Part shown: positions 10,700-47,790 of the stretch, piece after piece
Layout of the letters: each line of letters starts with the position of its first letter
How positions within the stretch are numbered: position 1 is the stretch's first letter
Assembly (NCBI RefSeq): GCF_013388255.1
Contig: NZ_CP058215.1
Location: 744,001 to 808,000, forward strand
DNA length: 64,000 nt
Origin: Methanolobus zinderi
Lineage (GTDB): Archaea > Halobacteriota > Methanosarcinia > Methanosarcinales > Methanosarcinaceae
Direction: 5' to 3'
Program-made: the position numbers and the translations under genes
Notes under the pieces: model-generated
Seen by the model: only the letters and a program-made list of their open reading frames with translations
The model's database searches: none
Told to the model about the DNA's origin: nothing

Positions 10700-11076
10700 T
10701 CATGAGAGAGGAAGGACGGCTGCCGGGCCTTATGGCCTGAGGAAAGTCTCCCCACCATTTAAACACACGAGTGCCTGTAAAGGGCACCGGGCGAGAGTCC
10801 GGGCAGTTGCGTTGCAACTCATGCAGTTTTTCTGCGTGCTGGCACAGAAACGATACCGTACCATGTTAATGCTGTGATGCTGAGAGGCTGAGGTCGCATG
10901 GATTGCGGATGGAACGGCGAATCCTCGTGGGTGCAAGTCGAAAAGGATTGATCTTTGATCATCCGGGTTTATGACGCTTAGCCGAATGCCGTCAATGCAA
11001 CTCTTCGGAGCGCATCTCCTGCCAGGCAGATAGATGTATTGCATTAACAGAAGGGAGCTTACTCTCCTCACTCATA
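10700..11076 (+). ncRNA. rnpB: RNase P RNA, archaeal type
   Basis: The catalytic RNA that trims tRNA 5' leaders. Conserved elements are visible: GAGGAAAGTC with following CCCC near 10740 (CR-I), ACAGAAACGATACCG near 10844 (CR-II/III region) and AGAAGGGAGCTTACTCTCC near 11050 (CR-V side). The ends pair as P1: ATGAGAGAGGA at 10702 with TCCTCACTCAT ending at 11075, 10 of 11 positions. Its 3' end abuts the stop codon of the convergent flavoprotein gene at 11077. Open frames inside it on both strands are artefacts. Confidence 0.93.
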
Positions 11077-46669: not shown

Positions 46670-47136
46670 TTACCACCACTCCATGATTTATTTATATAAA
46701 TACCAAAAGCATTTATTTAAATGCAAAAACTATTGTATTAATGTTTATAGGATTTTTATTTAATATATGGTTTAAGAAGCAATATTACATATAACAATTA
46801 TTTTACATGTATTGCCCGGTATAAGATTAAAACAATTATAAGTTTGCAGGACTTCATATTTTTAGTATTGATTTAATATTTGCATAAAAAATTCAAAGTG
46901 TACAAAATGGAATACATCTAAGTATTGTAAATAATTCAGATGGTGGGATTTTTCCATCCATCTATTTGTGCATAGGCAAGAATATCTCAAAGAATCAAAA
47001 ATAGTCTTTATAGGTTGTATAGAAAAGCTATAGGTAATATGAATGTGCCTCAGAACTCATAGGGTTCATCACGAATCAGCAGGGTTTTATCATCACAGGC
47101 ACATTTTTCTTAGTTTAATCTTAAAGCTTCAGTCTT
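46670..47136. promoter_or_regulatory. AT-rich intergenic region with NosD promoter
   Basis: Minus-strand TATA-like ATTTATATAAATA (46689-46701) serves the NosD gene. Just upstream of it, GCATTT and AAATGC (46709-46724) form a small inverted repeat. The rest is AT-rich and empty until the guide RNA at 47041-47106. Confidence 0.45.
47041..47106 (-). ncRNA. C/D box guide RNA (tRNA-Met C34 type)
   Basis: On the minus strand all boxes are present in order: C GTGATGA (47096-47090), 10-base guide, D' CTGA (47079-47076), TTC, C' GTGATGA (47072-47066), 12-base guide, D CTGA (47053-47050). AATGTGCCT and AGGCACATT close the ends in a terminal stem. The D guide ACCCTATGAGTT pairs with AACTCATA(GGGT); the fifth position from the D box is the C of the CAT anticodon, so it should direct 2'-O-methylation of C34 in elongator tRNA-Met, a known archaeal guide target. 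The D' target would be CAGGGTTTTA. It lies 31 bases after pyrF. Confidence 0.85.
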
Positions 47137-47790
47137 TTAGAGTACATCCTTAATTTCACTAACAATATCCTTTGCAGCTTTTGCAGGGTCATCTGACTGA
47201 TAGATTTTTCTCCCGACGATCACCCAGTCAGTACCTGCCATTATAGTATCAGCAGCACTGCCCCCCTGGGCACCGACCCCTGGTGATATTATGGCAAGTT
47301 CGTTGCCTATTATCTTTCTGATCTCTTTAACCCTTTCAGGACGGGTAGCAGGAGCCACGACACCGGATGCTTTCTGGTCTGCAGCCATTCGTGCTATTTT
47401 CTCACCTGCATCCTGCATTAGATCAAGCGCACCTGGGTGGCTCATTTCTGTGACCACGAAGATGTCCTTGTTTCTCTCACGTGCAAGGTCCACGCATATC
47501 TCCAGGCTGTCGTGTCCGGTAAATCCTTGTACTATTACCGCATCTGCTCCGGCATCGAATACCTGCTCACATATAAGTCGGTTCGTGTTAGGGATATCGG
47601 CCACCTTGAAGTCAGCTATTATGGATGCATACTCTGCAAGCTTTCCTATGATCTGAAGTCCGCTGGCAAGTACGAGGGGGTAACCAACCTTTATGGCATC
47701 GACGTGACCTGTAACAGCTTCTGATATTCTGATGGCTTCATCGCTGTCAAGTACATCAAGTGCGAGTATGAGCCTTGTGTTCTTTTCCAT
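47137..47790 (-). CDS. pyrF: Orotidine 5'-phosphate decarboxylase
   Basis: 217 residues, the normal length of archaeal OMP decarboxylase, last step of UMP synthesis. Catalytic residues are in Leu-Ala-Leu-Asp-Val near 11, Asp-Phe-Lys-Val-Ala-Asp-Ile-Pro (about 60-67, with the Asp-x-Lys-x2-Asp set) and the phosphate loop Pro-Gly-Val-Gly-Ala-Gln near 170. Downstream of deoxyhypusine synthase by 38 bases; the guide RNA follows it. Confidence 0.95.

Follow-up and report, generated by a model that had tools for sequence, protein, structure and literature searches.

The window analysed here, a stretch of 64,000 nucleotides from the genome of Methanolobus zinderi (NZ_CP058215.1, positions 744,001 to 808,000), carries on its minus strand the orotidine-5'-phosphate decarboxylase gene pyrF, a complete archaeal C/D box guide RNA that was read from the sequence at 47042-47105, and the gene of a NosD-like protein. 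The guide gene sits between the pyrF stop codon and the NosD-like gene, and pyrF lies directly upstream on the same strand with its stop codon 31 nt ahead of the terminal stem. The RNA consists, in this order, of a terminal stem, the C box, a D' guide of 10 nt, the D' box, a spacer of 3 nt, the C' box, a D guide of 12 nt and the D box, and from 47105 down to 47042 it reads AATGTGCC-T-GTGATGA-TAAAACCCTG-CTGA-TTC-GTGATGA-ACCCTATGAGTT-CTGA-GGCACATT. These features, together with the only Rfam match of the window that reaches its gathering score, are the following:

10704-11073, plus strand: archaeal RNase P RNA, 172.2 bits
43988-46669, minus strand: NosD-like parallel beta-helix repeat protein, 893 aa, with a hydrophobic C-terminal tail, adjoining the guide gene
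47042-47049, minus strand: terminal stem, 3' arm GGCACATT
47050-47053, minus strand: D box CTGA
47054-47065, minus strand: D guide ACCCTATGAGTT, pairing with GACTCATAGGG of pre-tRNA-Met with C34 at N+5
47066-47072, minus strand: C' box GTGATGA, an exact match to RUGAUGA
47073-47075, minus strand: D'-C' spacer TTC
47076-47079, minus strand: D' box CTGA
47080-47089, minus strand: D' guide TAAAACCCTG, for which the search of rRNA and tRNA for a target was negative
47090-47096, minus strand: C box GTGATGA, an exact match to RUGAUGA
47098-47105, minus strand: terminal stem, 5' arm AATGTGCC, forming 8 bp with 47042-47049
47137-47790, minus strand: pyrF, orotidine-5'-phosphate decarboxylase (NCBIfam NF010386, 304.1 bits, cut-off 208)

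As is typical of archaeal C/D box sRNAs, the boxes stand in order, the guides are about 10 to 12 nt long, the D'-C' spacer is short, and one guide, the D guide, complements a stable RNA with its target at N+5. The four-box layout (guides of 8-14 nt, spacer of 2-8 nt) occurs once in the window when both strands are scanned; 60 first-order Markov simulations of the window never produced it. The original prediction had placed such an RNA at 47041-47106; the four boxes, two guides, 3-nt spacer and terminal stem that it named are all present, its location was refined to 47042-47105, and the strand, on which it was silent, is the minus strand. The genome also encodes fibrillarin (PF01269, 285.4 bits, E 2.6e-85), as expected for an organism with C/D box sRNAs.

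A tRNA search of the genome, a single contig of 2.70 Mb, gave 41 tRNA matches. The elongator tRNA-Met gene is located at 2668416-2668524 on the minus strand of the genome, where it was not recognised by ARAGORN, and an intron of 35 nt follows its A37. With the unspliced form of this tRNA the D guide makes 11 contiguous pairs, ten of them Watson-Crick and one G-U, which in GACTCATA|GGG are T.G30, T-A31, G-C32, A-U33, G-C34, U-A35, A-U36 and U-A37 followed by three C-G pairs with the first bases of the intron, GGG; the next position places A opposite A and is a mismatch. Under the N+5 rule the fifth paired nucleotide receives the 2'-O-methyl group, and the nucleotide that pairs at the fifth position from the D box is C34, the arrangement expected of a tRNA-Met Cm34 guide. 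The comparison with the genome's own elongator gene and intron thereby supported the proposed target, tRNA-Met C34, for which the original prediction had looked to a tRNA-Met or pre-tRNA with at least nine bases complementary to the D guide. It had also attributed an extra GGGT in the match to a tRNA intron, which is correct for GGG, the paired start of the intron, and not for the T, where A faces A. The target has a single occurrence in the genome; the exact 12-mer AACTCATAGGGT has no second occurrence there because the real target is GACTCATAGGGA.

For the precursor an RNA duplex energy of -18.0 kcal/mol is predicted, versus -8.7 kcal/mol for the spliced tRNA-Met and -8.3 kcal/mol (L018) and -8.2 kcal/mol (L008) for the two other CAT tRNAs, one of which is presumably the initiator. 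Given these energies, it appears to be the intron that makes the guide specific among the CAT tRNAs; in its absence the guide could hardly discriminate between the three. With a probability of about 90%, the locus is predicted from its sequence to encode a C/D box small guide RNA that acts in trans on the wobble C34 of the unspliced elongator tRNA-Met. In the proposed mechanism L7Ae, Nop5 and fibrillarin would bind the boxes of the RNA, the D guide would pair with nucleotides 30-37 of the anticodon stem and loop and with three intron bases of the unspliced elongator tRNA-Met, and fibrillarin would 2'-O-methylate the wobble C34, which occupies the fifth paired position, with the intron bases setting this target apart from the two other tRNAs with a CAT anticodon. 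By eye, the precursor shows a bulge-helix-bulge with the central helix CTCA/TGAG and the bulges TA|G and AA|A. As the guide duplex would cover the 5' splice site and this bulge-helix-bulge, methylation would have to precede splicing, and the two should be mutually exclusive. The related species Methanolobus psychrophilus is reported to express fibrillarin, Nop5 and L7Ae as well as three C/D box sRNAs (PMC5378194).

The conservation of the guide was analysed in two ways. A scan of GTDB genomes for the layout with CCCTATGAG gave at least 118 stretches with 119 copies, in which the presence of CCCTATGAG is itself no evidence because the scan required it. The taxa among the matches listed are Methanosarcina, Methanolobus, Methanococcoides, Methanohalophilus, Methanothrix, Methanoperedens, ANME-2 and Methanolliviera, and further Thermoplasmata, DHVE2, Hydrothermarchaeota, Pyrohabitans and a Thermococci MAG. 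Among the 119 copies listed, TGATGA is present at C' in 108, a terminal stem of at least 5 bp in 76 (31.7 expected with shuffled partners), and the D' guides amount to 103 distinct sequences. One of the copies listed, from a Methanolobus MAG (UBA118, L074), is identical in both guides, the boxes and the spacer, and the pyrF of this MAG is 94.5% identical over the tblastn match. Some ANME-2-type genomes contain two guide copies with slightly different D' guides (L150 and L151 of the same MAG; G112:C206), in one case (L155) about 1.3 kb apart, and one contig filed under the bacterial Omnitrophota (L125) has an ANME-2-like copy and is probably mis-binned.

For the class as a whole the pattern TGATGAN{20,45}TATGAGNNCTGA was used, which leaves the intron-facing bases free. 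It matches 130 of 149 genomes, or 129 without G019, whose only match is spurious, and the reversed control pattern matches five of the 149. Among the 129 genomes, 127 have CCCTATGAG and two (G002 and G005) have CCTTATGAG. The 20 remaining genomes, i.e., the 19 without a match and G019, were re-examined by reading 30 loci, and TGATGAGCCCTATGAGNNCTGA was found in at least ten of them, G019 included, mostly with a weaker C box and in one of the ten copies cut by a contig start or end. An apparent loss of the guide in genus g23 was rejected, as looser patterns recover the RNA with a degenerate C box in several members.

The tRNA side was followed in 38 chosen genomes with a pattern built on the D-stem and GACTCATA, in which the intron was left free. 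The elongator tRNA-Met gene was found in 35 of the 38, in all 35 with an intron that starts with GGG, and the pattern missed it in G071, G002 and G005. Two further matches of this pattern were discarded as candidate precursors, L171, which is no tRNA, and L173 (G102:C14:1098), a CAT tRNA-like gene of G102 that has no intron and differs from the usual CAT tRNAs. In G002 and G005, both of family f6, the guide CCTTATGAG with CCT faces an intron that starts with AGG, its exact partner, and the precursor reads GCCAGACTCATA|AGGGCAACATAAGGCGCCTGAGAAATCTGG in both. This change of guide and intron counts as a single event in evolution, as the two genomes belong to the same genus, but it is a specific one. 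A search of the class by anticodon and T-loop gave GGG in every recognisable elongator tRNA-Met among the matches listed; the conservation of GGG alone proves little, because the splicing motif may also hold the start of the intron at GGG. At guide position 2, T is found opposite A31 in most cases and C opposite G31 in one Thermococci MAG and one Hydrothermarchaeum. Full covariation at this position is contradicted by ANME-2c, where A stands opposite A31 as a mismatch in all four tRNAs found. For the genomes behind the named loci, a tRNA pattern containing GGG matched in 15 of 24, and with a different pattern the target tRNA was found in only one of the five Hydrothermarchaeota genomes.

The main alternative is a real C/D guide that methylates C34 of the mature CAT tRNAs in general, i.e., elongator, initiator and the third CAT tRNA, with no specificity for the precursor. 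CTCATA is common to all three tRNAs, and eight positions still pair in the mature forms. However, loss of the intron weakens the pairing by about 9 kcal/mol, the intron-facing guide bases are identical in 127 of the 149 genomes, and in f6 these same bases change along with the intron, which makes a general CAT guide improbable compared with a guide that addresses the unspliced elongator tRNA-Met.

A second alternative arises from the placement of the RNA in Rfam, where the scan of the whole window assigns the locus to no family at gathering score. The best match is sR41 (RF01126) with 45.6 bits (E 2.3e-9; window positions 47048-47100), below the gathering score of 54, and sR3, snoPyro_CD, sR-tMet and others are weaker, with sR-tMet (RF02163) at 24 against a gathering score of 50. 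The alignment to sR41 spans the whole length of the RNA, with the four boxes and CCCUAUGAG of the D guide in common, although the RNA scores below the threshold of the family. As far as the accessible text of the source goes, sR49 and not sR41 is the tRNA-Met guide of Pyrococcus, and sR41 is an orphan that was proposed as a possible modifier of 23S G1950 (PMC2584109). By analogy, the main target of the D guide could be an rRNA, the tRNA match being secondary. Against this, exact complementarity between the D guide and the rRNA operon extends over no more than 7 nt, the longest run of Watson-Crick and G-U pairs that the guide forms there (nine) lies in the tRNA-Ala gene and not in rRNA, and the D guide of the sR41 consensus in Rfam itself complements the pre-tRNA-Met of a Thermococci MAG (L245), so that an rRNA as the main target is very unlikely. 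Given this complementarity and the orphan label in the available part of PMC2584109, the naming or assignment of sR41 and sR49 may need to be checked. Just as improbable is a chance resemblance or a decayed, unexpressed gene, since none of the 60 simulations gave the layout, and the boxes, the D guide and the terminal stem are kept across many genera in which the D' guide varies.

For the second guide of the RNA, the D' guide, a target in rRNA, for which the original prediction had suggested a search, was not found on the sense strand at nine or more of ten pairs. The search covered two rRNA operons and 41 tRNA loci at this threshold, and for the guide TAAAACCCTG it gave no sense-strand match to the target sequence CAGGGTTTTA in rRNA operons or tRNA genes; matches in the rRNA operons were on the antisense strand only, and two weak matches lie in or near tRNA regions. 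The longest exact complement of the D' guide in the rRNA operon is 6 nt, and shuffled versions mostly reach 6-8 nt. The D' guides of 34 Methanosarcinaceae are likewise not above shuffled ones when compared with Methanolobus rRNA (mean 6.53 vs. 6.71). The 11 D' guides of Thermoplasmata gave a mean of 8.55 versus 6.95 for shuffled versions, with Methanolobus rRNA as a stand-in, and five of them (L054, L112, L120, L129 and L140) match 9-11 bases at one 23S place, TAACTATGACCCTCTTAAGG (about position 4213 of L161). This place is taken here to be helix 69/71, and its N+5 nucleotide presumably corresponds to E. coli C1920. Matches to the same stand-in rRNA do not exceed 8 for the other six Thermoplasmata, Hydrothermarchaeota (5), DHVE2 (7) and the Methanomethylophilaceae-type guides (14). 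The RNA may, judging by these sequence matches, be a dual guide for rRNA and pre-tRNA in Thermoplasmata and a single guide in Methanosarcinaceae, in whose lineage the D' guide looks idle. For sRNAs of Pyrobaculum that target tRNAs it was likewise described, in the portion of the source available, that the other guide is without a target (PMC7994747).

Guides for tRNA-Met are already known from archaea, and the Methanolobus RNA is predicted to be a new member of this group. The haloarchaeal sR-tMet, as reportedly described by Joardar et al. in 2011, is a stand-alone C/D guide for Cm34 of elongator tRNA-Met; it is said to act on the intron-containing precursor and to be about 75 nt long with an unusual C'/D' element. 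The Methanolobus RNA is likewise a predicted stand-alone guide for Cm34 of this tRNA but is compact and fully canonical. The sR-tMet work (Joardar 2011) is cited in the accessible part of PMC4033218. In 2008, 18 sRNA candidates for Cm34 of intron-containing tRNA-Met were predicted, which, in the part of the paper available, are never encoded inside the tRNA gene (PMC2584109). Compared by their description only, these candidates resemble the Methanolobus RNA in lying outside the tRNA gene and in having an intron-containing tRNA-Met as target. In Pyrococcus, four C/D sRNAs for wobble positions, including that of tRNA-Met, were reported, and C/D-guided Cm34 of an intron-containing archaeal tRNA is described for pre-tRNA-Trp (both in excerpts of PMC7994747). 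There, the intron itself is the guide, whereas the Methanolobus guide has a gene of its own and the intron contributes to the target. The human SNORD97/SCARNA97 guide C34 methylation of elongator tRNA-Met according to the accessible text (PMC6601510); these are eukaryotic RNAs, compared here by their target nucleotide. Further sources, available in part, served as background only (PMC9014305, PMC5539422, PMC6313347, PMC4090602).

The gene order suggests how the RNA is made. Upstream of the guide and on the same strand, pyrF was found at 58 of the 118 loci listed, in Methanosarcinaceae, Methanoperedens, ANME-2 and Methanolliviera. The pyrF stop codon precedes the C box by 12-157 nt in 41 of these 58, falls within the C box in 14 (Methanoperedens-type and one Methanolliviera) and lies deeper inside the RNA in three. 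At 12 of the 60 listed loci without pyrF no common neighbour gene was seen by eye; the loci are pieces of at most 8 kb, so that the absence of pyrF from a piece is no proof of its absence from the neighbourhood. Most archaeal C/D genes are described, in the part of the source available, as overlapping their neighbours or lacking promoters, with the RNAs being cut from longer transcripts (PMC7994747), and a stop codon within the C box fits this known pattern. In the window no own promoter of the guide gene was found by a scan of the sigma-70 type, a scan not made for archaea, and no well-placed TATA box was seen by eye. From this context the C/D RNA is probably released by processing at the 3' end of the pyrF mRNA, with pyrF as its likely co-transcribed host gene. 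Among the publications listed in a limited literature search, which is weak evidence, none dealt with a pyrF-linked C/D sRNA.

Taken together, these observations allow a wider and still tentative reading that has less than even odds. In Methanosarcinia, the tRNA-Met intron would serve as an address label for C34 methylation: the guide would read three intron bases, the pair would co-evolve (CCC/GGG to CCT/AGG) and the guide would be kept at the 3' end of pyrF. The ancestral form of the RNA would have been a dual guide; some Thermoplasmata would still use it to methylate 23S helix 69/71 as well, and in Methanosarcinaceae the rRNA guide would have decayed. The C/D RNA constitutes a gene that is missed at the Rfam cut-off. 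Across Methanosarcinia and the named records of Thermoplasmata, DHVE2, Hydrothermarchaeota and Thermococci, one tRNA guide is deeply conserved and the second guide varies freely. For the retention of an archaeal tRNA intron the system offers a clean and testable case, in which the intron would set the elongator precursor apart from two tRNAs that share its anticodon, and any change in the intron would be followed by the guide.
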